Of a stretch of DNA of 50,611 bases, positions 13,671 through 48,098 are shown piece after piece (the stretch's first letter is position 1; every line of letters starts with the position of its first letter). The notes under the pieces were generated by a model. It ran no database searches and was not told the origin of the DNA. It saw nothing but the letters and a program-made list of their open reading frames with translations. The translations under genes and the position numbers were made by a program. Where the stretch lies: assembly GCA_022841745.1 (NCBI GenBank), contig JALHQW010000004.1, forward strand, positions 157,884 to 208,494, given 5' to 3'. Source of the DNA: Saprospiraceae bacterium. GTDB lineage: Bacteria; Bacteroidota; Bacteroidia; Chitinophagales; Saprospiraceae.

Positions 13671-13699
13671 GTAAAACGGGCTTGTGCTGCCCATGTTCA
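13671..13699 (-). promoter_or_regulatory. ECF-type promoter of the YtxH/holin operon
   Basis: On the minus strand TGAACATG (13692-13699), 13 nt, then CGTTTTACCCC (CGTTTTACC is 13671-13679 on the plus strand's complement). This gives GAAC-N16-CGTT, the ECF sigma promoter layout. The operon ATG is 83 nt downstream. It faces away from a twin site at 13761-13790. Confidence 0.8.
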
Positions 13700-13760
13700 A
13701 ATGGTGCTGCTTTTTCAGGAAAATTGTTGAAGCAAAACAGCGCATGGGGCTCCCCCGCTT

Positions 13761-13790
13761 TGAACATGGCGTACCCTCTTCCGTTTTACC
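13761..13790 (+). promoter_or_regulatory. ECF-type promoter of the second universal stress protein
   Basis: TGAACATG at 13761-13768, a 13-nt spacer, CGTTTTACC at 13782-13790. The gene's ATG is at 13822. It is the divergent partner of the site at 13671-13699 and has identical spacing. Confidence 0.8.
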
Positions 13791-13821
13791 CAAGCTATAT
13801 TCAAAACCACAAACCACAGCC

Positions 13822-14673
13822 ATGAAGGATCAAATAGTCTTAAGCATAGACCCTACCAACATACCGCACAACGCCATCCACTATGCGGAGGAATTGGCTC
13901 GTGCCGGACAAAAAGAACTGCTCATCTACAGCGTGCAAGGCATGCCCGTGCTGTCCCATGCTGACGGCGGGCTTACCAGTCCCGGGCTTGAGTACGTGCC
14001 CGGGGCGGTGGACGAAATGGAACAGATGGCGCAACGACTTTATGAAGAGGTGCAGGGGCGCTATCCCTACGTTAAGCTGGAGCACGGCCCCGGCTTTCAG
14101 GCTCCGGCTACCATCCATAAAATGGAAGAAATAGAGGGCGAGCCGGGCAGCTCTTGTATGCTCATAATGCCCAAAACGCATGAGCACACCTGGTGGAACA
14201 ATGCCATCGGCACTACAGAGACCGCCGTTGCCGCCGAGGTGAAATGCCCCGTGCTATTCTTGCCGGAAGGTGTGGAATACAAGGGAATTTCGAGGATAAT
14301 GTACCTTGCCGATACACAAGCATTGGTGGATGGGCAGTACAAGGGCTTCCGTTTCCTGCGCCGCTTTGCCGATGCGCACAATGCGACGATAGTTGTGGGC
14401 TTCGTCAACACCACCACCGATGAAGCGCGGGAGAACATAAGTATAGGTGAAGCCATGGAAGCGTTCAAGCAGCGGCTGCCCTTCCAGTTCAAACATGAGT
14501 ACCATTTCTTCCAGCACCACAACGCCGAAGAGATTCTCAGTATGGCCAACCTGACCCATACCGATATAGTGGCCTTCCCCTTCCGGGAGGCAAGCTTTTT
14601 CCAACGTTTTTTTGAGAACGAGATAACCCGCAGCCTTGTGCTAAAGGCTGATATGCCCGTGCTTGTGTTCTAA
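13822..14673 (+). CDS. Universal stress protein, two-domain
   Basis: This 283-residue protein has two Usp-like halves. The first begins IVLSIDPTNIPHNAIHYAEELA and ends EVKCPVLFLPEGVEY; the second begins ISRIMYLADTQ and ends LKADMPVLVF. It has the same size and layout as the protein at 177-1028, but the nucleotide loop of the first half is less clear (MLIMPKTHEHTWWNNAIGT). The start ATG 13822 lies 32 nt after an ECF-type promoter, which excludes the longer frame from 13684 because that would begin upstream of the promoter. It is probably a member of the proposed ECF stress regulon. Confidence 0.88.
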   Translation: MKDQIVLSIDPTNIPHNAIHYAEELARAGQKELLIYSVQGMPVLSHADGGLTSPGLEYVPGAVDEMEQMAQRLYEEVQGRYPYVKLEHGPGFQAPATIHKMEEIEGEPGSSCMLIMPKTHEHTWWNNAIGTTETAVAAEVKCPVLFLPEGVEYKGISRIMYLADTQALVDGQYKGFRFLRRFADAHNATIVVGFVNTTTDEARENISIGEAMEAFKQRLPFQFKHEYHFFQHHNAEEILSMANLTHTDIVAFPFREASFFQRFFENEITRSLVLKADMPVLVF

Positions 14674-14699
14674 TTTTTTTCATAAAAATCAACCCCATT

Positions 14700-14729
14700 T
14701 GAACACCGGGGCGGCTGCTCCGTTTTACC
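14700..14729 (+). promoter_or_regulatory. ECF-type promoter of the secreted protein at 14848
   Basis: TGAACACC at 14700-14707, a 13-nt spacer, CGTTTTACC at 14721-14729. The leader to the ATG at 14848 is about 110 nt. Confidence 0.75.
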
Positions 14730-14847
14730 TCAAAACAAGTGAAAAGCAGGAATCCAACAACCTTAAAATTTACTGATTGGCAATGTATTATACTATTGGC
14801 AAGAGGATATAGTTCCTCCTATTTTAATCAAAAAAAAATGTACGACC

Positions 14848-15387
14848 ATGAAGCCACTTATTAATTTAGCCATCCTATTCGTGATGCCATTGGCCATTGG
14901 TTTTTCGTCCTACGACAATGCCCCGGCCACAGCTGCCGCCAGTTCTGATGGCAGGTACTGCAACGCCCGCTACGACTTCTGCGTGAACTTCCCAAAAGAA
15001 CTTTTCACCAAGAAAATTACATCCGACAACGATGACGGTATCCGCCTCACCTCCGATGATGGCAAGGTGTGCGTGGAAGCTTCGGGCGCCCACAATGTAG
15101 GCAACTGGTCTATCACCGACCTTTACGATTTTACTTTCCAGGATATCACTGCTGAATATCCTGACGAGGTGCAGTACCTTGACTATGAAATCGGTAATAG
15201 CCACTACGAGGCTACTTTCAAGTACGCCAACGAACTGCACTACTATAAGACCGTGCTTCAAGACAACAACCACTACGTCACCTTGATGATAGCCGTTCCG
15301 CAAGGCAATCCGAAGCTGCTCAACTCCTTGAAAAAACAGGTAAACTTACAGGTTCAGGGTACGCACCAGTACACATCCGTCAATTAA
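14848..15387 (+). CDS. Secreted protein of unknown function
   Basis: This 179-residue protein has a signal peptide (MKPLINLAILFVMPLAIGFSS, cleavage near residues 20-30). The mature domain begins DGRYCNARYDFCVNFPKELF, with two Cys that could form a disulfide. It contains alternating beta strands and ends in a short polar tail. The pattern resembles small periplasmic PsbP/DUF-type domains, but I cannot name one. It lies downstream of an ECF-type promoter, which suggests an envelope-stress role. Confidence 0.75.
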   Translation: MKPLINLAILFVMPLAIGFSSYDNAPATAAASSDGRYCNARYDFCVNFPKELFTKKITSDNDDGIRLTSDDGKVCVEASGAHNVGNWSITDLYDFTFQDITAEYPDEVQYLDYEIGNSHYEATFKYANELHYYKTVLQDNNHYVTLMIAVPQGNPKLLNSLKKQVNLQVQGTHQYTSVN

Positions 15388-15495
15388 GCAATTCTTTCAA
15401 AATCAACACATGTCCAGTGGCTGGGTGCAGGCGAATACGGCAAGCACCCTTGGCCATGCAGTGTTATAAATCACCATTAATTAAATCAAAATTTT

Positions 15496-16089
15496 ATGAA
15501 AAACTTATTTTTTGCAATCCTGCTTCTTGCTTCAGCAAATTTGCTGAACGCACAGCAGACACTATCCTTTGGCCCCGTTATCGGTGCCAATTTCGCCACT
15601 ATTTCCGACGTAGATGGTTCAGAGTTCAACACCGGCTTCATGGGAGGTGCGCAGTTAACCTACAGCGATGTGAACAACTGGGGCATTGGCGGTGCTATCC
15701 TCTATTCCCGGGAGGGCGTGGATGTACAGGTCGGTAACGTGGAAGGTGCCACCAACCTGACTTACGTGCGCATTCCCGTAAAGGGCTACTGGTTCTTCCG
15801 CACCAACGAGGACAGGTTCAGGCCCAAGCTCTTCGTAGGCCCTTCGATAGGCATCTTAGTTGATTCCGACGCCAAGTTCAACAACGTGGAAGTTGACATC
15901 AAAGATACCTACAACACCCTTGACCTTGGACTGACGGCTGGCCTTGGCTTCAATGCGCGCATTTCTGAGAGCGGAACTTGGTTCAACTTTGATGCTGGCT
16001 ATACCCATGGACTGCTCGACGTGGCCGACAATACCGACAGCAAGAACCGCAACCTTAGCGTTACGGCTGGTATTTTATTCGGATTCTGA
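15496..16089 (+). CDS. Outer-membrane beta-barrel protein (PorT-like)
   Basis: This 197-residue protein has a signal peptide (MKNLFFAILLLASANLLNAQ) and then alternating amphipathic strands with aromatic girdles: LSFGPVIGANFATIS, LTYVRIPVKGYWFF, KLFVGPSIGILVD and a final LSVTAGILFGF ending in Phe. This matches small 8-stranded barrels of the PorT/OmpW-like class in Bacteroidota. It probably sits in the outer membrane. It lies 108 bp after the preceding secreted-protein gene and may share its promoter. Confidence 0.85.
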   Translation: MKNLFFAILLLASANLLNAQQTLSFGPVIGANFATISDVDGSEFNTGFMGGAQLTYSDVNNWGIGGAILYSREGVDVQVGNVEGATNLTYVRIPVKGYWFFRTNEDRFRPKLFVGPSIGILVDSDAKFNNVEVDIKDTYNTLDLGLTAGLGFNARISESGTWFNFDAGYTHGLLDVADNTDSKNRNLSVTAGILFGF

Positions 16090-18484: not shown

Positions 18485-18514
18485 TGAACATAAGCCCCCT
18501 TCATCCTTTATACT
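18485..18514 (+). promoter_or_regulatory. Weak ECF-type promoter upstream of the DUF2383 gene
   Basis: TGAACATA at 18485-18492, exactly 13 nt, then CTTTATACT at 18506-18514. The -35 half and spacing match the strong sites, but the -10 half differs (strong form CGTTTTACC). Confidence 0.35.
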
Positions 18515-20714: not shown

Positions 20715-21473
20715 ATGACCTTCACTTACGACGGCACTTACGAGGGATTGCTATCCGCCATTTTCGAGGCATACCATATCAAGTCTGAGCCGGTGGACAT
20801 CGTGCCGGAGGATGCTTACCAGCCGGGGCTTTTTGCGGAGCACCGCCATGTGGAGACCAATCCGGCATGGGCAGAACGGGTGCGTAAGGGCATCATCGCC
20901 AAGACGAGCAAGGAAGGCGAACGGATGCTCCGACGCTGCCTCCTTTCCGAACTGCCGGGCGTGGAAATGCTCATTTTCCATTTCATTAAAACGGCGATGG
21001 CCAGCGAGCGCAGCGTTGAGCACAACTACCTCGACCCCAAGATTTTGGAGCTGCACCAAATCAACAAAAAAATAGGTCGTGAGGTACACCGGATGCACGC
21101 CTTTGTACGCTTTGCCGAGACCCGTGACGGCCTCTTCGTCTCCCTCGTGGAGCCTGATTTCAATGTGCTGCCGCTTATCGGCAAACATTTCATCGAGCGT
21201 TATCCTGCGCAGCAATGGCTGATTTACGACACAAGGCGGCACTTTGGCTTGTTTTGGGATGAGAAAAAGGCCGAGTTCGTCACCTTCAGCGAGCAGGAGC
21301 ACCGACGCCTAACCGACGAAGTGCTTACGGGCATGGAGACCGACTACCAAGAGCTTTGGAAATCCTATTTCAAAAGCGTGGACATCCCTGAAAGGCGCAA
21401 CCTGAAACTGCACCTGCAGCACGTCCCAAAACGTTATTGGAAATACTTGGTAGAGAAACAGCCGGAGCGTTGA
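20715..21473 (+). CDS. TIGR03915-type putative DNA metabolism protein (DUF4130)
   Basis: This 252-residue protein starts with FTYDGTYEGLLSAIFEAY and contains HRMHAFVRFAETRDGLFVSLVEPDFNVLPLIGKHF and WLIYDTRRHFGLFWDE, all characteristic of the TIGR03915 family. This family is normally co-encoded with the radical SAM protein TIGR03916 (here at 17219). The two are thought to act together in DNA repair, but the chemistry is unknown. Here the pair is split by the DUF2383 and AsmA-like genes, a rearranged order. Its stop almost touches the ECF-type promoter of the next gene. Confidence 0.88.
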   Translation: MTFTYDGTYEGLLSAIFEAYHIKSEPVDIVPEDAYQPGLFAEHRHVETNPAWAERVRKGIIAKTSKEGERMLRRCLLSELPGVEMLIFHFIKTAMASERSVEHNYLDPKILELHQINKKIGREVHRMHAFVRFAETRDGLFVSLVEPDFNVLPLIGKHFIERYPAQQWLIYDTRRHFGLFWDEKKAEFVTFSEQEHRRLTDEVLTGMETDYQELWKSYFKSVDIPERRNLKLHLQHVPKRYWKYLVEKQPER

Positions 21474-21500
21474 ACATGGCGGGGACTGCTCCGTTTTCCC
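21471..21500 (+). promoter_or_regulatory. ECF-type promoter of the 21516 operon
   Basis: TGAACATG at 21471-21478, a 13-nt spacer, CGTTTTCCC at 21492-21500. The first bases overlap the stop codon of the upstream gene, and the ATG is only 16 nt downstream. Confidence 0.75.
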
Positions 21501-23634: not shown

Positions 23635-23664
23635 TGAACATGACCCCGCCCAGCCCGTTTTACC
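23635..23664 (+). promoter_or_regulatory. ECF-type promoter of the lipoprotein-AraC pair
   Basis: TGAACATG at 23635-23642, a 13-nt spacer, CGTTTTACC at 23656-23664. The ATG at 23684 is 20 nt downstream. Confidence 0.8.
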
Positions 23665-26312: not shown

Positions 26313-26840
26313 TTAGGCACGGCGGAAGTACTCCATGCCGTAGCCGTCTTGAATCATGTCCTTCATCTTCTTACGGGCGAAGAAGATGCGGCTCTTTACG
26401 GTGCCCATTGGCAGGTTTAGCTGCTCGGAGATTTCCTGGTACTCGTAGCCGTTGAAAAACATTTCGAACGGGACCCGGTGCGCCTCGTCCATGTTGTCAA
26501 GCATAACGCGAAGTTCCTTCATCATGATGATGGTACCGGCGTCGTTGCGGACTGCTTGGCGTACGGCTACTTCCTGGCTGTCTTCAAGGGGCTGCTCAAT
26601 TTGGTTGCGGGTGCGGCGCTTGCGGTACTCGTTAATGTAGCAGTTGCGCATGATGGTGGTTACCCAAGCCTTGAAGTTCGTGCCTTCCTCAAAGCGCTCC
26701 TTGCTGGCGAAGGCACGCATCACAGTTTCTTGGAAGAGGTCGTTGGCATCTTCACGGTTGTTGTTGGTAAGCTTCATTGCAAAGGCAAAAAGAAGGCTTT
26801 GGATTTGTGCGAGGTTGTGATTGAATTTCAAAGTTGTCAT
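26313..26840 (-). CDS. ECF RNA polymerase sigma factor (sigma factor 2)
   Basis: This 175-residue factor has region 2 (LLFAFAMKLTNNNREDANDL, then FQETVMRAFA and FKAWVTTIMRNCYINEYRKR) and region 4 (VPFEMFFNGYEYQEISEQLN, then LPMGTVKSRIFFARKKM). It is close in type to the many small ECF factors of Bacteroidota. No anti-sigma gene follows; instead a 570-bp structured non-coding stretch ends in a terminator. It is divergent from a sigma-54 activator gene, and a -24/-12-like element (26967-26983) points towards it. Confidence 0.93.
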   Translation of the reverse strand: MTTLKFNHNLAQIQSLLFAFAMKLTNNNREDANDLFQETVMRAFASKERFEEGTNFKAWVTTIMRNCYINEYRKRRTRNQIEQPLEDSQEVAVRQAVRNDAGTIIMMKELRVMLDNMDEAHRVPFEMFFNGYEYQEISEQLNLPMGTVKSRIFFARKKMKDMIQDGYGMEYFRRA

Positions 26841-26966: not shown

Positions 26967-26983
26967 GCCAAATGCCGTGCCAA
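26967..26983 (-). promoter_or_regulatory. Sigma-54-like -24/-12 element facing sigma factor 2
   Basis: The minus strand reads TTGGCACGGCATTTGGC. The -24 half TTGGCACG is perfect; the -12 half is TTGGC where TTGC[AT] is expected. The gene start is 126 nt downstream. GCCGTGCCAA (26974-26983) is exactly inverted as TTGGCACGGC at 27095-27104, where it overlaps a vegetative -7 box TAACTTTG (27090-27097) for the divergent activator gene. Confidence 0.4.
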
Positions 26984-27169
26984 CTTTATAACTTGTTGAT
27001 TATCAGATATTTGTAACCGTTTTAAACAAACATATTTTCTTATATTTAAGAATTAATCTTAAATAAAAGAAAGTTTCCAAAACCTTTTCTAACTTTGGCA
27101 CGGCTTCGAAATTTTTTTCAATTTTATTTCAAAAAAAATCAAGCCTGGCTTCTTGAACCAATAAGTTAA

Positions 27170-29647
27170 ATGGCCAATCCTGTTGACCGGCTTTCAATCC
27201 ACCTTGACGCTGCAGAAATCATGCAGCATGGGGTTATCTTCCTTGACAGGGAGGCCAACGTGCTTTTCGTCAACCGGCACTTTGCCCAGGGGCTGGGCTA
27301 CTCGCATGGAGAGTTCCAGCCTAAAACCTTCTTTCAGGTAAACCCGCATTTTAACCTCATGGCTTGGAAAAAGCTCTGGGAAGAGCTTGTCGCCAATGGG
27401 CAGGTAGCCCTCGAAACAGAGCATATCACCGCCCTCGGCGATGCCATTCCTGCCAAGCTACGCGGCGTGCTGCTGGAGGTGAACGGGGAGAAATACTGCC
27501 AGGCCATCGTGGAAGGCGACCTTGCCGAATCGCAGGAAGACCTCTTCCTTGCCCGCTTCTGCCTCGACAATGTGCGGGAAATGGTAATGTGGGTAGGCCC
27601 CGATGGGCGCATCTTTTACAGCAACAAAGCCGTGCGGGAAATGCTCGGCTACACCGCCGAAGAGCTGGACGGCATGAGGCTGGCAGACTTGGAGCCTGGC
27701 CTGACCGATGAGGATTGGAAGCAGGAATGGACCTTGCTTAAGAAGCAAGGCTCTATCATACGGGAGACCATCCGGCGCACCAAGTCGGGCGAGGAGTTCC
27801 CCGTGCAGCTCTCGCTCCATTACATGAACTACAATGGGCGGGAGTATAAAATGGCCTTCGTGCGCGACCTGCGCAACGTAAAGGCAAGGGAAGAAGCCGC
27901 CACTGTGGCTTCGATGGTGCTCGAAACCTCCAGCCAAATGATTTATTGGCTCAACCCCGATGGCAGCTTCGCATATGCTAACAGGGCCACATACGAGATT
28001 TTGGGCTATAGACCCGATGAACTTATCGGGAAATTCCTCTACGAGGGAATAGAAGCAGGGCTGGACAAAACAGGCTGGGAACAGCGGTGGGAGAACTTAA
28101 AGGTAAAAAAGCGGCTTTCCTTTCCCAGCATCAGGCGGACCTTACAGGGCCAGAATATTCCCGTACGGCTTTACATCAACTACATGAGGCTCGGCTCCAA
28201 GGAATACAACCTTGTGTTTGCCACCGATTTGAGGGAAGAAATGAGGATGGAAGAAGAAATTACCCTCGCCCTAAACTCCATCAATCAATCGCCCGATATG
28301 GTCTTTTGGCTGCGGGAAGACAGCAGTTTTCGCTATTTCAACGACAGCCTTGTAAAGGCCACGGGTTATACCCGCGAGGAAATCGAGAAAATGACAATTC
28401 TCGACTTTTTTCCCAGCTCTGACATCAAAGACTTTAAAGCAGGCTGGGAAAAATTGCGCAAGGGCATTCCCCTGAGCAGCGAGATGGAAATCACCTGCAA
28501 GGGCGGCAGGAAGGTACTCGTCGAAAGCAATGTGAGGATGATTAAATCCGAGGGAAAGGAATATTCCAGCACGGTGCTGCGCGACATCGCAGAACGAAAG
28601 CAAAAAGAGTTGGAACTGAAGCAGCGGATGGAAGAAATCGAGCAGCTTCAAGTAAAGCTTTCTGCGGAGAACATTATCTTAAAAGAGGAAATCCAAATAG
28701 ACCAGGGCTTCAACAATATCATCAGCAAAAGCCCAGCCTACAAGCCCGTGCTGCGGCAGGTCGGGCAGGTGGCAGGCACCACGGCCACGGTGCTGATTCT
28801 GGGCGAAACGGGCACAGGAAAGGAGCTTTTGGCAAAGGCCATCCACAGCCTAAGCGACCGGGCCGAAGAGACTATGGTGAAAATAAATTGCGGTGCCCTG
28901 CCCGAAAACCTCATCGAGAGCGAGCTTTTTGGCCACGAAAAAGGGGCGTTCACTGGAGCCTTCACCCGCAAGGCGGGCCGCTTCGAGCTGGCGCACAAGG
29001 GCAGTTTATTTTTAGATGAAATCGGCGAACTGCCGCTCGACTTGCAAGCCAAGCTGCTGCGGGTGCTGCAAGAGGGCGAGTTCGAGCGGCTCGGCGGCAC
29101 GGAGACCCTGAAGGTGGACGTGCGGGTGATTGCGGCCACCAACCGAAACCTGGATGAAATGGTGGAGCGCGGCACCTTCCGCGAAGACCTGTTCTACCGC
29201 CTCAATGTCTTCCCCATCTTCAACATCCCACTGCGCGACCGCCGGGAGGACATCCGCCCACTCGTGCGGCATTTCATCGAAAAATACAACACCAAGCTGG
29301 GCCGCAACGTGGAGGAGATACCCGACGCCGTGATGAAGGAATTAGAATCCTATGAATACCCTGGCAACGTGCGGGAATTGGAAAACCTAATCGAGCGCGC
29401 AGTCATATTGTCGCCGGGCCGTAAGCTGCAATCCAATTTCAATTTCAAGACCAATAAGTCCGGTAAAAAGGCCGCTTTCAAGACAATGGAGGAACTGCAA
29501 AAAGACCATATCCTCGAAGCCCTCCGCCGTACAAAGGGCAAGGTCACTGGCCCGGGCGGCGCCGCTGAAATACTGGGCATGAACGATAAGACACTCTATT
29601 CCAGGATGACGAAATTTGATATTGGGAGACTTGATTATGATGGGTGA
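27170..29647 (+). CDS. Sigma-54-dependent transcriptional activator with four PAS domains
   Basis: This 825-residue bacterial enhancer-binding protein has four successive PAS domains (about residues 10-120, 125-240, 245-365, 370-480; e.g. [57 protein letters not shown]) and a short coiled coil. The AAA+ domain follows, with Walker [16 protein letters not shown] and the sigma-54 contact loop [16 protein letters not shown] intact, and then a Fis-type helix-turn-helix at the C-terminus ([17 protein letters not shown]). There is no receiver domain, so it senses small ligands, redox state or light through PAS rather than phosphorylation. It diverges from ECF sigma factor 2, a likely target. Confidence 0.95.
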
Positions 29648-34080: not shown

Positions 34081-34157
34081 TGGTCATTGGGGTCATTGGT
34101 CGTTTGTCGCTGACATGTCGCCAGGTTGACCAATGACCCCGAAGTGACCATTTTTTT
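34081..34157. terminator. Long inverted repeat, possible plus-strand terminator
   Basis: TGGTCA + GGGGTCATTGGTC (34081-34101) pairs with GACCAATGACCCC + TGACCA (34128-34150), with a small internal loop, followed by seven T on the plus strand. No plus-strand gene ends here, so it may block antisense transcription. Confidence 0.5.
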
Positions 34158-34527
34158 AGCTTGCAGAAATGTCCTGCATGTGCGCCTTGGCGCGGTTTGC
34201 GCCACGCTGGAAGGCGTTCTCGGTTTCTTTGACTTCTTCTTGCGCTACCTGAGCGCCAGACTTAATGCGCTCCTGTAGCTTGGTGCTAACTTCGGAAGCA
34301 TAAGCCTTTCCTTTTTCGAGGATGTCACTGACCGTGGAAGCTGCGCTGGAGAACTTCTCCTGTGCGTAGGTACTGGCCTGTGTACCATACTCAGACGCCT
34401 TGGATGCGGCTTCGCTGCGCAATTGGCGACCCTTATCTGTGTTGATGAGGTAGCCTACTGCGGCACCTGTTGCGAGCCCGGCGAGAAAAATCCAGCCACT
34501 GTTGTTACTTTCAGAATTGTGATGCAT
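34156..34527 (-). CDS. YtxH domain-containing general stress protein
   Basis: This 123-residue protein has an N-terminal glycine/alanine-rich helix (GWIFLAGLATGAAVGYLIN) followed by TDKGRQLRSEAASKAS and a long amphipathic helix rich in Ala, Ser, Glu and Lys. It is a paralogue of the protein at 12903-13232. It lies downstream of the DUF5670-like gene and may share that gene's ECF-type promoter, although a hairpin at 34560-34618 lies between them. Confidence 0.85.
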   Translation of the reverse strand: MHHNSESNNSGWIFLAGLATGAAVGYLINTDKGRQLRSEAASKASEYGTQASTYAQEKFSSAASTVSDILEKGKAYASEVSTKLQERIKSGAQVAQEEVKETENAFQRGANRAKAHMQDISAS

Positions 34528-34559
34528 GGTTGATAAAATTTTTTAAGTTCGAAAATGAG

Positions 34560-34618
34560 GCAAGCTGCTGAGTCAAAGGATGGGGGTCGGACCCCACCCG
34601 AACTGGTCAGCAGCTTGC
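34560..34618. repeat. 12-bp inverted repeat between DUF5670-like and YtxH genes
   Basis: GCAAGCTGCTGA (34560-34571) and TCAGCAGCTTGC (34607-34618) pair perfectly. The loop holds a second stem, GGGGTC/GACCCC. On the minus strand it is followed by CTCATTTT, so it may be a leaky terminator. Confidence 0.55.
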
Positions 34619-34631
34619 GGTTTGTAGTTCT

Positions 34632-34787
34632 CTAAATCTTTTGTAATAGCCTCAAGACGATGAGCACTACCGCTACGATGAGCAGGATGTGTATCATGTT
34701 GCCGACGACAGCACCAAAGCTGAGGTAGCCAAAGAGCCAACCCACTATGAGCAGAACGATGATAATCCAAACAATGTCTTTCATTTT
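34632..34787 (-). CDS. DUF5670/lmo0937-family small membrane protein
   Basis: This 51-residue protein is almost wholly hydrophobic with two helices (VWIIIVLLIVGWLFGYLSF and MIHILLIVAVVLIVLRLLQ). The size and the pattern GxxIHILLhhAhhhhhhRLhQ fit the lmo0937/DUF5670 family found in stress islands of Bacteroidota. An ECF-type promoter lies 86 nt upstream at 34873-34902. Confidence 0.8.
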   Translation of the reverse strand, partial: KMKDIVWIIIVLLIVGWLFGYLSFGAVVGNMIHILLIVAVVLIVLRLLQKI

Positions 34788-34872: not shown

Positions 34873-34902
34873 GGTAAAACGGGGCAGTATCCACGATGTT
34901 CA
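34873..34902 (-). promoter_or_regulatory. ECF-type promoter of the DUF5670/YtxH pair
   Basis: On the minus strand TGAACATC (34895-34902), a 13-nt spacer, CGTTTTACC (34873-34881). Confidence 0.8.
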
Positions 34903-38742: not shown

Positions 38743-41004
38743 TTACACCATAGCGTTGGGCAGACTCACATAAAACATGGCGCCCTTGCCGGGTGCGCTC
38801 TCCACGCTGATGCTGCCGCCATGCTTCTCCACGATACGTTTCACGATGGCCAGCCCAATGCCCGTGCCCTCGAATTGCTCCTCGTTCACCAGCCTATTGA
38901 ATACTCCGAAGATGCGCCCAGCATGCTGCATATCGAACCCGATGCCATTGTCCCGTACGAAAAACCGCACGTTGCCGTTGGTCAATTCGCCACCGACTTC
39001 GATGATGGCAGGGTTTGCGTTCACAGAGTACTTAATGGCGTTCGATAAAAGGTTGTTTATTACGATGGAAAGGGCAGGTTTGTCGGCTACCACATGGGGC
39101 AGCATGTCCTGTATTTTCAGCTTGACATCCCTGCCGTTGCGCCAAGCATCTTCCAGCAAGTGCTTGGCTTCATTGTCTATAACTTCTTGTAGGGACAACA
39201 TGTTCAAAATCAGGCTTTTCCGCCCCGCACGGGTGTAGGCCAGCAGACCAGCTATCAGTTCCCCCAGGCGGGAGGCGCTGGTCTTGATACTGTTCAAGAG
39301 GTCGAGCCCTTCCTCCCCCAGCGCCAAATGATGGTCTTCCTTTAGGATGTCGGCATACGCCTCAATGGTTCGCAGGGGCGCCCGCAGGTCGTGCGACACC
39401 GAGTAGCTGAAGGTCTCCAAATCGTCGTAAGCCTCGGTCAGGTCCCGGTTGGTCTGCTGTACCTCCCGGTATTTCTGGAAGATGAAATCCTTCACGTCAT
39501 TGCGGAGCGCCATCGCCGTTTCCACCTCGTAGGGCTGCCAAGGCTGCGAGGTACCGCTCTCCAGTTGCGACCAGATTTCAAACGATTGGCGGGGACTGAG
39601 CCGCACTTGGCCGTCCTGCATTGTCACGGCCTTTTCGGAGTTGCCCGCCCAATGCACGGTCTGCGTCACCTCCGGCCTGAACCACAGCAGGTAGTCGCCC
39701 GGAACATTGGACAGGCGCACGGCCAACACACCAGCTGCCACTTGCTTGAACTCGTTGGCGGGCGGGTAATATTTGGCCAGTTCATGGGTGTGGTAAACAA
39801 GCATCACGACCTGCCTATCCATCCAATACAGCAGGCCCAGCAACTGCTCCTTCGTGGGCGTATTGCCGAGCAGGGTAATACGGCTCTCGTGGTAAATTGC
39901 GGCACCGCCGCAATGCACGAGGTCGAGCATATTGGTGTCGGTGGCGGTCAGGCCCTCGTAAAGGTCCCAATTGGCGGCCATCTGCTCGAACAATTTTGAC
40001 TTCACCAAACTGGCCTGCATCACCGATTGACGGTAGGCCATCACGGTCTGCATCCCGATGTGGGTGCTGATGAGTTGCCCCATGAACCACGCCGTATGCC
40101 GCTTGAAGTGCCCCGTTAACTTGGGCGAATAGTGGTGGCAGGCAATGAGGCCCCACAGCTTTCCCTCCGATGTAATGGCGATGCTCATGCTCGCCCTCAC
40201 GCCCATGTTGTTGAGGTACTCCAAGTGGATGGGTGACACACCCCGGCCAGCGCAATGCGTCTGGTCGAGCGGCTGCCCGGTGAGCGGCGAAAGGTACGGC
40301 TGCAGCAGGGCGGGCGTGGCAAGTACGTCGGTGATGATGCGGGCAGGGTTTTTCATGAAAAGTGCCCTTGCCTGCGCCGGCACATCGGAGGCCGGGAAGC
40401 GCAGCCCTAGGAAAGCCTCCAATTGCAGCTCTTTGGCTTCCGACAGCACGGTGCCGTGGCCATCCTCGTCGAAGCGGTAAATCATCACCCTGTCGTAGCC
40501 CGTTATCCTTTTCACCTCTTCGGCGGAGGCTTGCAACACCGACTGCAGGCTCTCACATTGCTGTATGCGCTGTATCGCCTCGCTGATGCTGCGCTGCATG
40601 GCATAGTTGACGGTGTCCTCGTCAAATGGCTCGAATTCGAGGATGTACTGTCCCTCTTGTCGGTAGATGAGGCAGTTGAGCCAATTAACCCTTCCATCGA
40701 GGGGCAGTCTGATGCGCACAGGGTTGGCTGCCATGTACTCGCCCCCCCTCGTGGTGGCCATGAGGATGCTGGCAAATGCGTCATCGGGAAGGAACTTGTG
40801 CAAGCCCTGGCCCGTTAAATCCGCCGCCGGGTGACCAAGGTGTGTTTGCGAGTTTTCAGATACCTGCAATACTTCCCAGTCGGATTCCCTGCAAGCAAGG
40901 ATGCAGGAATGTGCCTGTACCGTGGAGATAAAGCTGATGGGTTCGCTGGCGCAATTGCTCAGGTCGTAAGGCACCGAATAAGGAGAATCAACGCTTGGGC
41001 GCAT
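38743..41004 (-). CDS. bphP: Bacteriophytochrome histidine kinase (PAS-GAF-PHY-HisKA-HATPase)
   Basis: This 753-residue red/far-red photoreceptor has biliverdin-attachment Cys18 in the LSNCASEPI segment, a PAS domain and a GAF domain with the chromophore-pocket motif FPASDVPAQAR (Asp207). The PHY domain has the tongue motif PRQSFEIW. A HisKA domain (SVSHDLRAPL, phospho-His near 526) and a HATPase domain (GIGF, GTGIGLA) follow. The usual QPHG turn after the Cys segment reads VQAHS here, an unusual change in the PAS knot region. With the heme oxygenase and response regulator downstream it forms a complete light-signalling unit. Confidence 0.95.
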   Translation of the reverse strand: MRPSVDSPYSVPYDLSNCASEPISFISTVQAHSCILACRESDWEVLQVSENSQTHLGHPAADLTGQGLHKFLPDDAFASILMATTRGGEYMAANPVRIRLPLDGRVNWLNCLIYRQEGQYILEFEPFDEDTVNYAMQRSISEAIQRIQQCESLQSVLQASAEEVKRITGYDRVMIYRFDEDGHGTVLSEAKELQLEAFLGLRFPASDVPAQARALFMKNPARIITDVLATPALLQPYLSPLTGQPLDQTHCAGRGVSPIHLEYLNNMGVRASMSIAITSEGKLWGLIACHHYSPKLTGHFKRHTAWFMGQLISTHIGMQTVMAYRQSVMQASLVKSKLFEQMAANWDLYEGLTATDTNMLDLVHCGGAAIYHESRITLLGNTPTKEQLLGLLYWMDRQVVMLVYHTHELAKYYPPANEFKQVAAGVLAVRLSNVPGDYLLWFRPEVTQTVHWAGNSEKAVTMQDGQVRLSPRQSFEIWSQLESGTSQPWQPYEVETAMALRNDVKDFIFQKYREVQQTNRDLTEAYDDLETFSYSVSHDLRAPLRTIEAYADILKEDHHLALGEEGLDLLNSIKTSASRLGELIAGLLAYTRAGRKSLILNMLSLQEVIDNEAKHLLEDAWRNGRDVKLKIQDMLPHVVADKPALSIVINNLLSNAIKYSVNANPAIIEVGGELTNGNVRFFVRDNGIGFDMQHAGRIFGVFNRLVNEEQFEGTGIGLAIVKRIVEKHGGSISVESAPGKGAMFYVSLPNAMV

Positions 41005-41599: not shown

Positions 41600-41629
41600 T
41601 GAACATTTTCCCGCCTTCTCCTTTTTAGC
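41600..41629 (+). promoter_or_regulatory. Weak ECF-type promoter upstream of 41673
   Basis: TGAACATT at 41600-41607, exactly 13 nt, CTTTTTAGC at 41621-41629. The -35 half and spacing match; the -10 half is degenerate. Confidence 0.35.
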
Positions 41630-41672: not shown

Positions 41673-41873
41673 ATGGATACCAAGAAAATCATGGGCACCG
41701 TATTGGTTGCCTTCGGGCTGCTTGGACTCGTGCCAGGCGTACTCGGGATTTTTGAAAAACAAGAATTCTTAGGCATAAACTCATGGGCGCTGACCCTTCT
41801 CGGTGTGGTTTTCTTCATCTCCGGCGTGGGCATCATTCAGTCCATCCGCTCCACCAATCCGCCGCAGGCTTGA
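41673..41873 (+). CDS. Small two-helix membrane protein (DUF3185-like)
   Basis: This 66-residue protein has two hydrophobic helices (MGTVLVAFGLLGLVPGVLGI and ALTLLGVVFFISGVGII) joined by a charged loop (FEKQEFLGINS). The layout is like that of the protein at 29837-30049. ATG 41673 begins directly before the first helix. A weak ECF-type promoter lies 44 nt upstream. Confidence 0.7.
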   Translation: MDTKKIMGTVLVAFGLLGLVPGVLGIFEKQEFLGINSWALTLLGVVFFISGVGIIQSIRSTNPPQA

Positions 41874-41914: not shown

Positions 41915-44900
41915 ATGAAAACTTTACGGAAACTGGGCTTGTTGCTGCTCGCAACATGCCTTTACGCCTCATGCGCCAACTACAATCTTATCCTCAACGA
42001 ATCCGCCGAGGGCAGCGGTAAACTTTCTCTTCCCACCAAGAAGCTGGACTACAAGGTCTATCTCATAGGTGACGCAGGCGCATCGCCCAAGGGAGCGCGC
42101 AGCGCCGCCCTTGAAGCACTGCGGCAAGAACTTGAAAAGGCACCTAAGAACAGCGCGGTCATCTTCCTTGGCAACAACGCCGTGCCCGACGGCCTGCCTG
42201 GCAAAAAGGAAAAGGGCTTCAAGAAAGCAGAACAACAGCTTAAAGCCCAACTGGATATTCTCAAAAATTACCAAGGCCAAATCATCTTCCTGCCCGGCAA
42301 CTACGACTGGGCAGCCGATGGCGTGGACGGCGTGAAGCGCCAACAAAAATTCATAGAGGAATATCTCGGCAGAGAAGACGTCTTCCTGCCAAAAGACGGT
42401 TGCAGCGGCCCCGAAACAATGGAACTGACCAAGAAGCTCGGCCTGCTCATACTTGACAGCCAATGGTACATGACCGATTGGGACAGCCAGCCAGAAATCA
42501 ACGAATCTTGTGACTTTATGACACGGGGTGAGGCCATGAGTGAGGCCACCGATGCGGCGGGCGACTTCGTTGGCAAAAACCTGCTCGTGGTGGCGCACCA
42601 CTCCATCATCTCCAATGGTTGGAACGATGACCATTTTGCCACAAGGGACCACCTCTATCCGCCCTCCGACCGAAAGCCGAAGCGCAATATGGCCATGCCA
42701 TTGATTGGTTCCGTGGTGCTTGCTGCTGACCGATTTTCCACTAATCGCCAAGAGGTTAGCCACCCCATTTACCAGCAATACATTGGCGCTGTCAATGGCA
42801 TTGCCAAAAAGCATGGCAACATCATCTACGCTGCGGGGCACGAGCGCAACCTCCAACTAAAAGTGGAAAAGGACGATGAAGAGGATATGGTGCAAATCGT
42901 GAGCGGCGCCGGCTCCATGCTTAGCCCCGTGAAGCGGAGCAAGGACACGCAGATGGCCTACGCAAGCAGCCAAGGCTTCGCCGTGGTCAATTTTTACGAA
43001 GACGGTGAGGCTTGGGTGGATTTCGTGCGGATAAAGGGACGCCATAACGCTGTGCCGCTCGAAGACGGAAAGGACAAGAAGGAAAGCTCCCAATTAAGTG
43101 ATTTAGCGCCTAACCAGGGCGGCCCGACTGCGCCTTCTTTCACTGAAAAAGACAAGGCCGGCAAGGTCGTGACGCCCGAAGTTTTTTATCGCCAAAAAAT
43201 AAAAGACGTACTGCCAACGCCGAAAGAACTGATGCCGAAAACCTATCCGGAGTACCTACAGAAAAAGGACAGCACCACGACCTCCATTTTGAAGGAAGGC
43301 GAAATCTGGAGAATGAGCGACTTTATGTGGGGTGAGATGTACACTGATTATTTTTTTGAAAAACTGAAAGTGCCCGTGCTCGACATGGAAAAGTACGGCG
43401 GTGGTGTGAAGGCGTTCAAAAAGGGCGGCGGCTTCCAGAGCATTTCCCTGCAACTGAAAAACGACAAAGGCGACCGGCTGTATGCCCTGCGTGGTGTGAA
43501 AAAAGTGGCTGAAAACCTGGAGGGCCCATTAGCCAATACATTTGCAAAGGACATCTTGGAGCACGCCTACACGGCCTCCAACCCCTTCGCTCCATACCTG
43601 CTGGGGCCGATGCACGCCGCCATCAATACCTACCACACCAATCCCCAGTTGTTCTATGTGCCGCAGCAGCCACGGCTCGGTATTTACAACGAGTTTGGCG
43701 GCAGGCTCTTCATGTTGGAGGAGCGCCCCGACAACGACTGGAGCAACAGCGCCAGCCTTGGGAACTCGAATAAAATCGTCAGCTCAGGCAAGGTGATAGA
43801 AGCCCGAATGAACAACGACAAGGCCGTTATTGACCAAAAAATGTTGCTCCGCAACCGCCTGTTCGACCTCATTATCGGCGACTGGGACCGCCACGTTGAC
43901 CAATGGCGCTGGGCCACCAAGCCTATCGAAGGCACGGAGAAGGTGCTGTACCAGCCCATCGCCCGCGACCGCGACCAAGCCTTTTGCAAATATGGTGGGC
44001 TGATATTCCATGCCTCCCGTTTCATGGTGGCCAACTTCCGCTCGCTCGGCACCTACGACGACCACCTGAACTGGCGGGAGAACAAGTGGATGACCGATGA
44101 ATACAACTATTTCGACCATTTTTTCCTCAATGAACTGACTTGGGAGGATTGGGAAAAAGAGGTGAAAACCATCCAGAAAAACCTGACGGATGAGGTCATT
44201 GACGCAAGCATGAAATGGCTGCCACGGGGCATTTACGAGGATATGGCCCCTGTGCTGTCGCACAATATCAAATCGCGCCGCGACCACCTTATGGTGACGG
44301 CACGCAGGTGGCACCATCGGCTGGCCAATAAGGTCAAAGTCGTTGCTACGCAAAATGAAAACTTGATAAAAGTGGAGCGCCTAAGCAATGAGTTGACCAA
44401 GGTTTCCATTTTTGAGTTCAGCAAGGATGGGGAGAAACAGCCCGTTTATACCCGCATTTTCGACAATGACGTGACCGACGAAATCAGGATTTTCGGCTTG
44501 GACGGCGACGATGAGTTCGTGGTGGAGGGCAAGGTAGGGCGCTCGCCCATCGTGCGGCTCATCGGCGGCATTGACGAAGACAAGTTCAAGGACGAATCGA
44601 AGGTGTCGGGCCTTACCCGCAAGACCATCATCCACGACGACCTCATGGAGGACAACAAAGTGGAGTCCAAGGGCGAGGCACGCGACAAGCGCATGAACGA
44701 CTATGAGCGCAACCATTATTTTTTCAGAAAAAAGATCACCAACAATGTGATTGGTTTACCCATCATCGGCTACAACCCCGACGAACAGCTTTTCGTGGGC
44801 GCAAGCCTGAAAATCACGCAAGACCGCTACAGCGGTTTAAACATCCACCAGTTAGCAGGGCAGGTGGCGTTTTCCACGCAGGGCTACTTCTTCCGCTACA

Positions 44901-45799
44901 TTGGCGACTACCAACAGGCGATGGGCCAAAAGGACCTGCTCGTGGAGGCTTCCATTGAGACACCGCGCTACGTGAACAATTTCTTTGGCTTCGGCAACGA
45001 GACCTCCCGCCTTGAGGATACGCCACTGAACTACTACCGCACCCGAATGAAGCGCTACAACTTCGGTCTTTCGATGAAAAAGCAGACGGATGGCGGGCTA
45101 CTCTTTGCCATAGGCCCAACGGCCAAAATGGTGGAAGTGTACGACCGGGAGGGCAGCTTCCTGGACAGCTACGAAGAGAACATCCGCCCGGAAGTGTACA
45201 GCAACCAGTTTTTTGCCGGCGTCAGGACGAGGCTCGAATATGCCAATATTGACCGCAGGCTGAACCCGTCGAGGGGAATGGAGTTCCGAAGCTACGCAAG
45301 CTGGCTGGCCAACCTCGGCGAGCCTTCCATGAACTACCTGAACGTTGGTGGCTTCCTGAGCCTTTACCTTCCGCTCAATCCGTCCCGTCGTTTTGTACTG
45401 GCCACGAGGGTGGGAGGGGCGCACAACGTCGGCGATTTCGACTTTTTCAATGCGCCTTCATTGGGCGGCAGCCAATCCGACCATTTGGGCGGGCACCTGA
45501 CCATACGGGGCTACAACTCCAACCGCTTCACGGGCCGCACCGTTTTTTACCACAACAACGACCTGCGCATCCGACTCTTGGGAAACCGCAAACTGGTGGG
45601 CATCCCCCTTTCTATCGGGATCGTCCCCAGCTTCGACTATGGTCGGGTATGGGCAGACGGCGAGCAGTCCGATAAATGGCACACGAGCTATGGCGGCGGC
45701 ATATGGGTAGCACCCTTGGACTTCGTTTCCATTTCCTTCAGCCTAATGAAATCTGAGGAGGGGCAGCGGTTCACGGTGGGGCTGGGGTATGATTTCTGA
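41915..45799 (+). CDS. Outer-membrane lipoprotein: phosphoesterase-like domain fused to a BamA-type barrel
   Basis: This 1294-residue protein has a lipoprotein signal (LYASC, Cys20). A calcineurin-like domain follows in the first ~350 residues, with LIGDAGASPKG, FLGNNAVPDG, FLPGNYDWAADG, VVAHHSIISNG and YAAGHERNLQ. Then come a long middle region with IIGDWDRHVDQWRWATKPI and a C-terminal surface-antigen/BamA-type barrel (NPSRGMEFRSYASWL through a final GLGYDF). Against the family pattern (GD, GDN, GNHD, HH, GHxH), three metal-site positions are changed: GNN, GNYD and GHER. The phosphatase is probably weak or dead. Such fusions are common in Bacteroidota; their role is unknown. A terminator follows at 46030-46081. 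Confidence 0.85.
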   Translation: MKTLRKLGLLLLATCLYASCANYNLILNESAEGSGKLSLPTKKLDYKVYLIGDAGASPKGARSAALEALRQELEKAPKNSAVIFLGNNAVPDGLPGKKEKGFKKAEQQLKAQLDILKNYQGQIIFLPGNYDWAADGVDGVKRQQKFIEEYLGREDVFLPKDGCSGPETMELTKKLGLLILDSQWYMTDWDSQPEINESCDFMTRGEAMSEATDAAGDFVGKNLLVVAHHSIISNGWNDDHFATRDHLYPPSDRKPKRNMAMPLIGSVVLAADRFSTNRQEVSHPIYQQYIGAVNGIAKKHGNIIYAAGHERNLQLKVEKDDEEDMVQIVSGAGSMLSPVKRSKDTQMAYASSQGFAVVNFYEDGEAWVDFVRIKGRHNAVPLEDGKDKKESSQLSDLAPNQGGPTAPSFTEKDKAGKVVTPEVFYRQKIKDVLPTPKELMPKTYPEYLQKKDSTTTSILKEGEIWRMSDFMWGEMYTDYFFEKLKVPVLDMEKYGGGVKAFKKGGGFQSISLQLKNDKGDRLYALRGVKKVAENLEGPLANTFAKDILEHAYTASNPFAPYLLGPMHAAINTYHTNPQLFYVPQQPRLGIYNEFGGRLFMLEERPDNDWSNSASLGNSNKIVSSGKVIEARMNNDKAVIDQKMLLRNRLFDLIIGDWDRHVDQWRWATKPIEGTEKVLYQPIARDRDQAFCKYGGLIFHASRFMVANFRSLGTYDDHLNWRENKWMTDEYNYFDHFFLNELTWEDWEKEVKTIQKNLTDEVIDASMKWLPRGIYEDMAPVLSHNIKSRRDHLMVTARRWHHRLANKVKVVATQNENLIKVERLSNELTKVSIFEFSKDGEKQPVYTRIFDNDVTDEIRIFGLDGDDEFVVEGKVGRSPIVRLIGGIDEDKFKDESKVSGLTRKTIIHDDLMEDNKVESKGEARDKRMNDYERNHYFFRKKITNNVIGLPIIGYNPDEQLFVGASLKITQDRYSGLNIHQLAGQVAFSTQGYFFRYIGDYQQAMGQKDLLVEASIETPRYVNNFFGFGNETSRLEDTPLNYYRTRMKRYNFGLSMKKQTDGGLLFAIGPTAKMVEVYDREGSFLDSYEENIRPEVYSNQFFAGVRTRLEYANIDRRLNPSRGMEFRSYASWLANLGEPSMNYLNVGGFLSLYLPLNPSRRFVLATRVGGAHNVGDFDFFNAPSLGGSQSDHLGGHLTIRGYNSNRFTGRTVFYHNNDLRIRLLGNRKLVGIPLSIGIVPSFDYGRVWADGEQSDKWHTSYGGGIWVAPLDFVSISFSLMKSEEGQRFTVGLGYDF

Positions 45800-46447: not shown

Positions 46448-47428
46448 ATGAACCATCAATCATCTCAACCGGTGACGAACTCACCGGATCGGAAGCCCTA
46501 TGCCATCTTTGGCGTCATCGGAGTCATCCTGCTCGTTACCATCGGCTATTTGGCCTACTCCAACGTGTATAAAAACAACCAACTGGAAATGGTGTACGCA
46601 GATGTGAACGAAGCCCATTCCTTACAAGCAGAACTAGACAATCAATACAGGGCAGCCATTGCGGAGCTGGAAAGCTTAAAGGGCAGCCACGGCGAAATGG
46701 ATGCCCTCATCAATAAGCAACAAACGGAATTGGAAGATCAGAAATCCAGGATAGAAACCTTATTAGTGGACCGTAGTAAGCTGAAACTGGCTCGCCAGGA
46801 AATAAATGGCATCAAGACCCAAATGCAAGGCTACTTGGTCGAAATTGATAAACTGAAGGCCGACAACCAGTTACTGACCACTGAACGGGATGAACTGGTG
46901 GTGACCAAGCAGGCGTTGCAAAACGACCTGATGACTAAGGAAATGGAGAACACGCAGCTCAATGAATCCAAGGCCACGCTCGTCAGCCAGAACGAAGAGC
47001 TTGCCAACAAAGTGAAAATTGGTTCTGCCATTGCCGTAAAGGACCTGAAAGTGGAGGGCCTGAAGCTACGCTCAAACGGCAAGACCAGGGATAAAAGCAC
47101 GGCAAAAAAAGTTGATGTCCTGAACGTATGCTTCAAGACCACCCCAAATGAGGTGGTAGCGCCAGGACCCGAGTCGTTCTATGTGCGCATCGTGAACCCA
47201 AGAGGTGAGACCCTCGCCGTGGAAGACCTCGGTTCCGGCACCATGACCAACGAAAAGACCGGCGAACAAGTGCGTTTTACGCAGACCGCCGAGACACAGT
47301 ACAACAACGACGAGCAGCAACTTTGCCTTTCATGGAAGCCCAACACCAACTTCGAGGCCGGCAAATATGCCGTGGAAGTGTTTAATAAGGGCTTTTTGGT
47401 AGGAGCTAGCAGTTTCGAATTGAAATAA
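46448..47428 (+). CDS. Membrane-anchored coiled-coil protein
   Basis: This 326-residue protein has a short cytoplasmic start, one membrane helix (AIFGVIGVILLVTIGYLAY) and a long coiled coil (about residues 45-190). A C-terminal beta domain follows (VLNVCFKTTPNEVVAPGPE, YVRIVNPRGETLAVEDLGSG, YAVEVFNKGFLVGASSF). This arrangement is frequent in Bacteroidota proteins of unknown function and suggests an envelope-spanning structural role. The leader is AT-rich and about 370 bp long without another gene. Confidence 0.8.
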   Translation: MNHQSSQPVTNSPDRKPYAIFGVIGVILLVTIGYLAYSNVYKNNQLEMVYADVNEAHSLQAELDNQYRAAIAELESLKGSHGEMDALINKQQTELEDQKSRIETLLVDRSKLKLARQEINGIKTQMQGYLVEIDKLKADNQLLTTERDELVVTKQALQNDLMTKEMENTQLNESKATLVSQNEELANKVKIGSAIAVKDLKVEGLKLRSNGKTRDKSTAKKVDVLNVCFKTTPNEVVAPGPESFYVRIVNPRGETLAVEDLGSGTMTNEKTGEQVRFTQTAETQYNNDEQQLCLSWKPNTNFEAGKYAVEVFNKGFLVGASSFELK

Positions 47429-47453
47429 AGTGCTAAAGCAAAGTTAGTTAAAG

Positions 47454-47488
47454 GCTGGGGCAGGTAAGCGATGCCTGCTCCAGCTCTT
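47454..47488 (+). terminator. Terminator after the coiled-coil gene
   Basis: GCTGGGGCAGG (47454-47464) and CCTGCTCCAGC (47474-47484) with one G-T pair, followed by TCTTTT. Confidence 0.8.
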
Positions 47489-47551
47489 TTCAACTTGCTT
47501 GAATAATAATATTGCGGGTTTTCCTTATTGTTTAGGATAGTTAGTTGGAAG

Positions 47552-47582
47552 CCGGTGCGAATGAGTTTCGCACCGGTTTTTT
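47552..47582 (+). terminator. Second terminator in tandem
   Basis: CCGGTGCGAA (47552-47561) and TTCGCACCGG (47567-47576), a 5-nt loop, then six T. Only 64 nt separate it from the previous terminator, so it is either a backup or ends a very short RNA. Confidence 0.8.
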
Positions 47583-47644
47583 AATTCAGGACAGCGGGCA
47601 AGGTGTGCTGGCTGGGCAATCTGGTAATTGTCCGCTTGCAGCCA

Positions 47645-47694
47645 TAAAAAATAACGGCAGTAGCATATCTTATGCCACCGCCATTATTTTTTTA
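47645..47694. terminator. Bidirectional terminator
   Basis: AAAAATAACGGC and GCCATTATTTTTTT pair around an inner GCAT/ATGC stem, with A/T runs on both sides. Confidence 0.65.
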
Positions 47695-47893
47695 AGGGCA
47701 TTTCAAACTCGCCTATCGCTTGAAATTCGGCGACCAATGTTTCAACCTGTGCAAAATGCAAAAAATGGTCGCTATTGTTTTACCAGCTTGCTGCTGAAAA
47801 CAATTAGTCCTGACACAACCCCGACGAAGTACGAGCTTCTTTTTTTTCAACTTCTTTGGCCAGTAAAAAATTTAGTCCGCTGAAAAATAACAT
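47684..47893 (-). pseudogene. Decayed small gene
   Basis: The minus strand from ATG 47893 reads MLFFSGLNFLLAKEVEKK, then shifts at an 8-A run. The +1 frame continues SSYFVGVVSGLIVFSSKLVK, and the original frame resumes as HFLHFAQVETLVAEFQAIG to the TAA at 47684. The pieces read like one 70-residue protein with two compensating frameshifts. Family not recognised; tentative. Confidence 0.3.
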
Positions 47894-48068
47894 GCTGATA
47901 ACCGGAAAATTTTTGTTCTGGAAATATCCCGTTTCGGGCATTGGTCAAGCGCATGCAGCTGCTTCTCCGCAAATTCTGAGTGGCATCCGCGCTTCACGTT
48001 ATCAGATTAGCCTGTATATCCCCTTGTCAATGGCCTGGCCCGCTTTGCACACATTTTTCAGTAGCAAA

Positions 48069-48098
48069 TGAACATGGGCATTGCACCCCCGTTTTACC
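48069..48098 (+). promoter_or_regulatory. ECF-type promoter of the 34-residue peptide
   Basis: TGAACATG at 48069-48076, a 13-nt spacer, CGTTTTACC at 48090-48098. The ATG is at 48122. Confidence 0.8.

Follow-up and report, generated by a model that had tools for sequence, protein, structure and literature searches.

The general stress promoter of the alphaproteobacteria reads GGAAC-N16-CGTT (PMC7083833; this paper and those named below are cited from the parts of them that were available). A relay in which enhancer-binding proteins and sigma-54 drive the gene for an extracytoplasmic function (ECF) sigma factor, which then drives a regulon, is known from HrpRS and HrpL of Pseudomonas syringae (PMC5263251), and ECF promoters of the Bacteroidota with a CGT box have been linked chiefly with genes of type IX secretion (PMC9723704, PMC4800418). 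Here we analysed 50,611 nucleotides of a Saprospiraceae genome (contig JALHQW010000004.1, positions 157,884 to 208,494), referred to as the window, in which a two-part motif recurs before genes for stress proteins. The motif sites are probably the promoters of a local general-stress regulon that is read by the ECF sigma factor ECFsig_B under a relay of a PAS-domain activator and sigma-54. The layout GAAC-N16-CGTT is common to these sites and to the promoter of EcfG (ECF15), the first base being T here and G in the EcfG promoter (PMC7083833), and general-stress-type targets are found in both.

For the searches, the strict motif was defined as TGAACAYS-N13-CGTTTTMCC and the relaxed motif as TGAACA-N15-CKTTTTM. 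The strict motif matched the window seven times at a chance expectation of 0.00 (100 shuffles), and the whole 8.43 Mb source genome (G000, with the window on contig C4; other genomes are numbered from G001 up) contained exactly these seven matches and none of the reversed control. An unbiased scan of the window for 5-mer/gap/5-mer dyads, with tandem repeats masked, gave GAACA-N15-CGTTT as the top dyad, with a log10 P of -9.5 that is uncorrected for the number of dyads; the best value in three shuffles was -6.7. A scan of the reversed sequence re-finds the same motif and is not an independent control. The candidate sites in the window and the genes behind them are:

13670..13699, minus strand: promoter site before the gene run for DUF7615-like, YtxH and holin proteins (13588 to 12428)
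12428..13588, minus strand: target gene run encoding a DUF7615-like protein, YtxH and a holin superfamily III protein
13761..13790, plus strand: promoter site before the universal stress protein (Usp) gene 13822-14673
13822..14673, plus strand: target gene, universal stress protein
14700..14729, plus strand: promoter site before a secreted protein gene (14848-15387) and an outer membrane protein (OMP) beta-barrel gene (15496-16089)
18485..18512, plus strand: weaker site CCTTTATA with one mismatch, 16 nt before a DUF2383 gene
21471..21500, plus strand: promoter site before a secreted protein gene (21516-22208) and an FAD oxidoreductase gene
23635..23664, plus strand: promoter site before a lipoprotein gene (23684-24190) and an AraC-type regulator gene (24197-25231)
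34873..34902, minus strand: promoter site before DUF5670 (34632-34784) and YtxH (34156-34527), also present in G004
34156..34784, minus strand: target genes, DUF5670 and YtxH proteins
41600..41627, plus strand: promoter site CCTTTTTA before a DUF3185-like gene (41673-41873) and an Omp85 gene (41915-45799)
48069..48098, plus strand: promoter site before a single-helix open reading frame (ORF) of 34 aa (48122-48226), with a PycTM-domain gene then at 48597

The seven strict sites had been placed at these positions in a preliminary description of this DNA, apart from the first, which is one base longer than given there. As claimed in that description, each of the seven stands in the right orientation before an ORF, the distance from the 28-mer to the ATG being 17 to 120 nt; for the site at 48069 the target is the ORF of 34 aa, which perhaps encodes a small membrane stress peptide. 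The two weaker sites of the preliminary description fared differently. The one at 41600 is found before its DUF3185-like ortholog in three of three genomes, at 45, 46 and 48 nt. The one at 18485 departs from the motif at one base, and no counterpart precedes the DUF2383 homolog of G007; a full site does stand 18 nt before the ATG of a DUF2383 paralog on contig C12, a distance similar to the 16 nt at 18485. The DUF7615 and YtxH assignments in the run at 12428..13588 have scores under the Pfam cut-offs. Gene calls were based on codon scores and Pfam, and on tblastn and plain ORFs in AT-rich relatives, where the caller missed genes.

Throughout the genome, the relaxed motif matched 21 times, as compared to four matches of the reversed pattern. 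We accept 18 of these matches as promoters: eight in the window, seven on contig C12 (291-17606, on a single strand) and one each on C3, C41 and C121. All 18 lie at most 300 nt before an ATG-started ORF in the right direction. The other three relaxed matches (C4:69123, C37:52632 and C78:21623) end in TTTTTC, are followed only by doubtful-looking ORFs of about 45-80 aa and were judged to be chance; dropping them was our own judgement, and the reversed control gives four. Window matches at 16978 and 36162, the latter within a histidine kinase gene, were likewise not accepted as sites. The genes downstream of the sites on C12 encode a GAF-like protein, DUF2383, CsbD, Pmp3 and Dps/ferritin. Since the orthologs of the window and of the start of C12 form one stretch in G004 (C7:131005-166088), the end of C4 most likely continues into C12. 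Fifteen of the 18 accepted sites fall on these two contig ends, so the motif, which had been called dispersed, is largely concentrated in one island, with only the sites on C3, C41 and C121 lying elsewhere.

Several properties of the sites are those of promoters. In 185,613 bases of island loci, 37 matches were found at the spacing N15 and a single one over 15 other spacings from N8 to N23. A purine stands 9 nt after CGTT (motif position 33) in 39 of 40 sites from four genomes, although this position was not used for their selection; the control showed a purine there in seven of 15 matches (Fisher P 4e-5). This control was drawn from 28 of 30 loci, L046 and L057 having been dropped by a position filter, and its 15 matches come from genera other than g1. 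Ten of the 15 control matches lie inside ORFs of at least 100 aa, whereas such ORFs overlap eight of the 40 sites, and as far as read the latter are mostly upstream-extended starts or antisense ORFs. Furthermore, the two elements are often kept before orthologs at similar distances while the spacer changes. Sites are kept before Usp in four of four genomes (with one mismatch, CCGTTCTA, in G004 and G008), before the lipoprotein gene in 3/3, DUF3185 in 3/3 and Dps in 2/3, and in 2/2 each before CsbD, DUF5670, the C12 DUF2383 gene, the GAF protein gene, g428, g14848 and g17688. The site at 13670..13699 is full in G004, weak in G008 and was not found in G007. Two elements at fixed spacing, before genes and in one orientation, are what an ECF promoter consists of. 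The rigid spacing, the purine at a fixed distance and the conservation before many, if not all, orthologs support the view that the sites behave like ECF promoters.

The genes that we regard as central to the control of these sites lie within the island:

26313..26840, minus strand: ECFsig_B, ECF sigma factor with Pfam Sigma70_r2 and r4_2 domains, the best candidate reader of the sites
26970..26983, minus strand: sigma-54 -24-type element TTGGCACGGCATTT upstream of ECFsig_B
27036..27072, no strand assigned: paired inverted repeat with 16-nt arms (94%), a candidate activator enhancer site about 53 nt above the sigma-54-type element
27170..29647, plus strand: PAS-PAS-PAS-AAA+-Fis sigma-54 activator, a bacterial enhancer-binding protein (PF00158, 245.5 bits), divergent from ECFsig_B

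ECFsig_B scores above the cut-offs of both ECF sigma-70 domains (PF04542, 55.0 bits; PF08281, 46.3 bits) and of TIGR02937 (85.9, cut-off 42.9). Among the 13 other genomes of the genus, orthologs of at least 70% identity were found only in G004 (86%), G007 (73%) and G008 (70%), those of G004 and G007 lying inside islands; in the other ten the best match was 49-58% identical. The motif follows this distribution. Its counts in the genus (14 genomes) are 16 in G000, 11 each in G004 and G007, two in G008, where both sites adjoin orthologs of island genes, and 0-2 in the other ten. In the family (248 genomes), six genomes have at least three motif matches, and each of them ranks within the top 15 by ECFsig_B match (hypergeometric 1.6e-8; 2.7e-7 if the source genome is left out; the cut-offs were set with the tables in view). 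This co-occurrence indicates that ECFsig_B is probably the reader of the sites, or at least the best candidate for it. No anti-sigma gene was noticed beside ECFsig_B, where no systematic search for one was made. In a tree of 82 rows, whose deep forks are weak, the 28 rows of a widespread paralog group apart as one clade (support 99/93), and the B-like rows of motif-rich genomes fall outside it. The source genome also holds a paralog 78% identical to ECFsig_B (G000:C6:47641-48150; L131, L163), which adjoins a receiver-domain gene and has no sigma-54-type element, and 5 kb from it a third homolog (53%).

To follow the motif further, a sequence model was built from 40 sites of the four genus genomes, and the best 150 first-look candidates were scored per genome. 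At E<=0.1, the training genomes G000, G004, G007 and G008 had 17, 15, 10 and 3 sites, while in other genera there were five in G252, four each in G107 and G231 and three in G259. G006 had two sites, G028 and G012 one each, and G001, G003, G005, G010 and G016 none. A further 15 genomes were examined with the motif, which gave 16 matches against one in the control in G292 (records L174, L176), five against none in G288, three against none in G285 and 0-3 in the remaining 12. In other genera, sites stand before genes for DUF1328, holin IV and an AraC-type protein in G252, for Usp and (with one mismatch) a baeRF protein in G259, and for CsbD, Pmp3 and a DUF697 protein in G231; DUF1328 also follows a site, by sequence, in G259 and G107. 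An Fe/Mn superoxide dismutase gene of G007 has a site 250 nt before it. When 20 target proteins were scanned, a Pfam family scored above its cut-off for 10/10 in one set and 3/10 in the second. The preliminary description had read the sites as ECF promoters of a stress regulon. Both parts gain from these data: the promoter reading from the rigid spacing, the start-site-like purine, the ortholog conservation and the co-occurrence with one ECF sigma factor, and the stress reading from the kinds of gene targeted beyond the window, in other genera too (Dps, CsbD, Pmp3, superoxide dismutase, DUF1328 and Usp). It had named neither a sigma factor nor its upstream control, both of which are proposed here.

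The region between ECFsig_B and the divergent activator suggests how the sigma factor gene itself may be controlled. At about -142 it contains TTGGCACGGCATTTGGC, which recurs in G004 and, less well matched in its -12 half, in G007; the sigma-54 -24-type element TTGGCACG is thus found upstream of ECFsig_B. The pattern TTGGCA[CT]G-N2-4-TTT has its sole match in the window at this element. Within 900 nt upstream, it was found at 25 of 45 non-core homolog loci and at none of 24 core loci, that is, loci of the widespread paralog (chance expectations 0.08 and 0.04), the pattern having been drawn up after several of the 25 had been seen. The core/non-core split was taken from the tree, leaving out five of 54 non-core rows (two of L141 and one each of L118, L121 and L131); four of 49 non-core and four of 28 core loci were not counted, being too short, duplicate or without a match. 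The -12 half reads TTTGC at loci L107, L190 and L204 (reference -12, TTGC). A TTGATnnTCA-like palindrome about 20 nt upstream of TTGGCACG is kept, by eye, in many of the 25 aligned elements (L101, L152, L153 and others).

A GAFTGA loop and a Walker A motif are marks of sigma-54 enhancer-binding proteins, and the activator encoded at 27170..29647 carries both, with GAFTGA at residue 592 and GETGTGKE at 545. At least eight genomes (G000, G004, G007, G259, G231, G107, G106 and G094) have a divergent AAA+ activator next to the ECF gene, and its loop, GAFTGA or GSFTGA, was found in seven of these. AT-rich inverted repeats are also present in G004 and G107; none was reported for G007, where a similar repeat was seen by eye only. 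The sigma-54 gene itself has one match in the source genome. In G231 and G259 (L111, L137), an extra helical-looking ORF of about 140-150 aa lies, by eye, between the ECF gene and the TTGGCACG element, and could encode a co-transcribed regulator of the sigma factor.

In the scheme that we propose, the sites would be promoters with TGAACA(T) as -35 and CCGTTTTA as -10 element (GAAC-N16-CGTT), and the predicted transcription start would lie some 9 nt downstream of CGTT. RNA polymerase carrying ECFsig_B would read them, and the activity of ECFsig_B would most likely depend on how strongly its gene is transcribed: the PAS activator would bind the inverted repeats at 27036-27072 and open the sigma-54 promoter at the TTGGCACG element (26970-26983). 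Stress or another signal would then be passed from the PAS activator and sigma-54 to ECFsig_B, and from there to the TGAACAT/CCGTTTTA promoters and the stress genes, the regulon comprising Usp, YtxH, DUF5670, DUF2383, CsbD, Dps, Pmp3 and others. We infer each arrow of this relay, that is, the binding of ECFsig_B to the sites, the driving of ECFsig_B by the activator and stress as the signal. The features seen in the sequence are the motif, its rigid spacing, conservation and position before gene starts, the co-occurrence with ECFsig_B, the sigma-54-type element and the activator. More broadly, we lean slightly towards the view that the general stress response of Saprospiraceae is a sigma-factor relay, leading from a PAS-sensing sigma-54 activator through an ECF sigma factor without a recognised anti-sigma factor to EcfG-like GAAC-N16-CGTT island promoters. 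Such a relay would be neither the PhyR-NepR-EcfG nor the SigB partner-switching system, and would have arisen by convergence.

A number of observations weigh against this scheme. Nine of the 15 genomes with the best ECFsig_B matches have fewer than three motif matches, the reversed control reaches three or more in two of 248 genomes, and G012, which lacks an ECFsig_B ortholog, has one model match at E<=0.1. At up to three mismatches the genome-wide excess is small (223 versus 197 in the reversed control), a count that is uninformative. The ortholog check found no site before Dps or DUF7615 in G007, Pmp3 in G004, the DUF2383 homolog in G007 or PycTM in G000; the Dps gene of G007 stands behind another ORF that has a site before it. 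A search for the motif upstream of the ECFsig_B gene gave no sign of auto-regulation, the best match there having 9.4 bits versus 22.6-27.1 for the training sites. On the side of the relay, the -12 half is degenerate (TTTGG in G000 and G004, TTTTA in G007), the G008 ortholog and the 78% paralog of G000 have neither a sigma-54-type element nor a neighbouring activator, and the element occurs in three cultured Lewinellaceae whose motif counts are not raised (0-1, control 0-1). Because of these last two observations, the proposed relay is not universal; the promoter sequence appears to drift as well.

The 78% paralog could also read the same sites. It is possible that several related ECF factors, including the one at C6:47641, share the promoters in a layered arrangement like that of paired EcfG factors, which would be compatible with reading by ECFsig_B. 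The close paralog in the same genome, its place next to a receiver-domain gene and its grouping with ECFsig_B in the tree speak for such sharing, and paired EcfG factors are known (PMC7083833). Within the genus, however, a close second copy is found only in G000, and the regulon is present without it in G004 and G007.

The second ECF sigma factor of the island was our first candidate for the main reader, its gene being the one nearest to the first site:

11730..12293, minus strand: ECFsig_A, second ECF sigma factor, behind the YtxH run; a possible target, co-regulator or rival reader

ECFsig_A could read the promoters and be auto-regulated via the site at 13670, downstream of which its gene lies. 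Its homolog in G004 is also beside the cluster, with a one-mismatch site 56 nt upstream, and among 60 relatives its best matches include G004 (rank 2) and G007 (rank 4). Its conservation is nevertheless weak: identity is 48% in G004 and 43% in G007, near that in the motif-poor genomes G029 (44%), G012 (42%) and G036 (41%). It was not found in the G007 island, the best G007 match lying on another contig, and a 134-nt gap separates the holin gene from ECFsig_A. Since the motif is tracked less closely by the conservation of ECFsig_A than by that of ECFsig_B, we no longer favour ECFsig_A and consider it unlikely to be the reader.

Decidedly improbable, in our view, is an operator role of the sites, in which an ordinary transcription factor such as the AraC-type regulator encoded at 24197-25231 would bind two half-sites next to sigma-A promoters. 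AraC-type genes do occur in the islands of G000, G004 and G007 and downstream of sites in G252 and, as judged by eye from similarity, G231, and rigid spacing would suit a two-helix activator too. In contrast, the accepted sites all face a gene, their two halves are dissimilar, a purine stands at a fixed start-site distance and the layout, apart from the first base, equals that of the known ECF promoter GGAAC-N16-CGTT (PMC7083833). Moreover, the AraC protein is less conserved in G007 than ECFsig_B (39% versus 73%). Chance or repeat-derived clustering without function, to which the small excess at up to three mismatches would lend itself, is contradicted by the zero expected strict matches, the ortholog conservation with changed spacers and the start-site signal, and it deserves hardly any credence.

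Among the described systems, reading by ECFsig_B under a sigma-54 relay can be set beside EcfG. CsbD, Dps and Usp overlap with the general-stress targets of EcfG. NepR (PF18557) was not found in any of the eight motif genomes, while the Caulobacter control was positive; on this ground the present system is not EcfG as defined, and it may serve the same end. The two response regulators of the island have a receiver domain only, with no sigma-like domain shown, the genome not having been searched for PhyR. The host is a member of the Bacteroidota, and control appears to be transcriptional via sigma-54, where EcfG uses PhyR-NepR partner switching. The proposed order of the relay, as suggested by gene architecture, is the same as for HrpRS, sigma-54 and HrpL in the available parts of PMC5263251; the differences are that a stress regulon rather than secretion would be controlled, that the PAS-sensing activator is divergent from and adjoins the ECF gene, and that the phylum is unrelated.

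Also from the Bacteroidota are the ECF factor SigP (PGN_0274/PG0214) of Porphyromonas gingivalis and the SM6 promoters of Flavobacterium psychrophilum, whose -10 region has a CGT box (PMC4800418, PMC9723704); both are associated largely with type IX secretion genes, and the motif reported for SigP in the available text is unlike the one found here. ECFsig_B scores 80.8 against the SigP/PG0214 family NF058625, below the cut-off of 130. We take PG0214 and PGN_0274 to be the same gene. The closest solved structures by sequence are those of Mycobacterium SigH (6jcy, a chimera, E 3e-21; 5zx2, 1e-20). Actinobacterial SigH/SigR promoters have a GGAA-type -35 and a GTT -10 element. ECFsig_B scores 93.0 against the actinobacterial SigH family TIGR02947, which is below its cut-off of 251.55.

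Among the literature matches listed, as judged from titles and abstract openings and mostly without the text of subscription papers, none presented a Bacteroidota sigma factor for the general stress response. The locus offers a candidate for such a general stress system, in which a sigma factor and its upstream activator can be named, the promoter is defined and the sites in one genome number about 18. If correct, it would mean that a second phylum employs an EcfG-like promoter code with another type of switch, and it would place the orphan small stress families DUF5670, DUF2383, DUF1328, YtxH and CsbD in a common regulatory context.

Further genes of the island may provide inputs, possibly light. 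Positions 35155-41004 of the window encode a bacteriophytochrome, a heme oxygenase, an ethylene-receptor-like histidine kinase and two single receivers, a set also present in G004; the search upstream of these phytochrome, heme oxygenase, kinase and receiver genes showed no motif site. The gene at 48510-49751 encodes a Pycsar effector-type membrane domain (PycTM, PF18967); in G004, a motif site stands 96 nt before the ortholog of this gene. At 38288-38484, a receiver gene and the phytochrome gene have between them 24.6 copies of the 8-base tandem repeat GTTTTAGG, a tract whose length may vary between strains.

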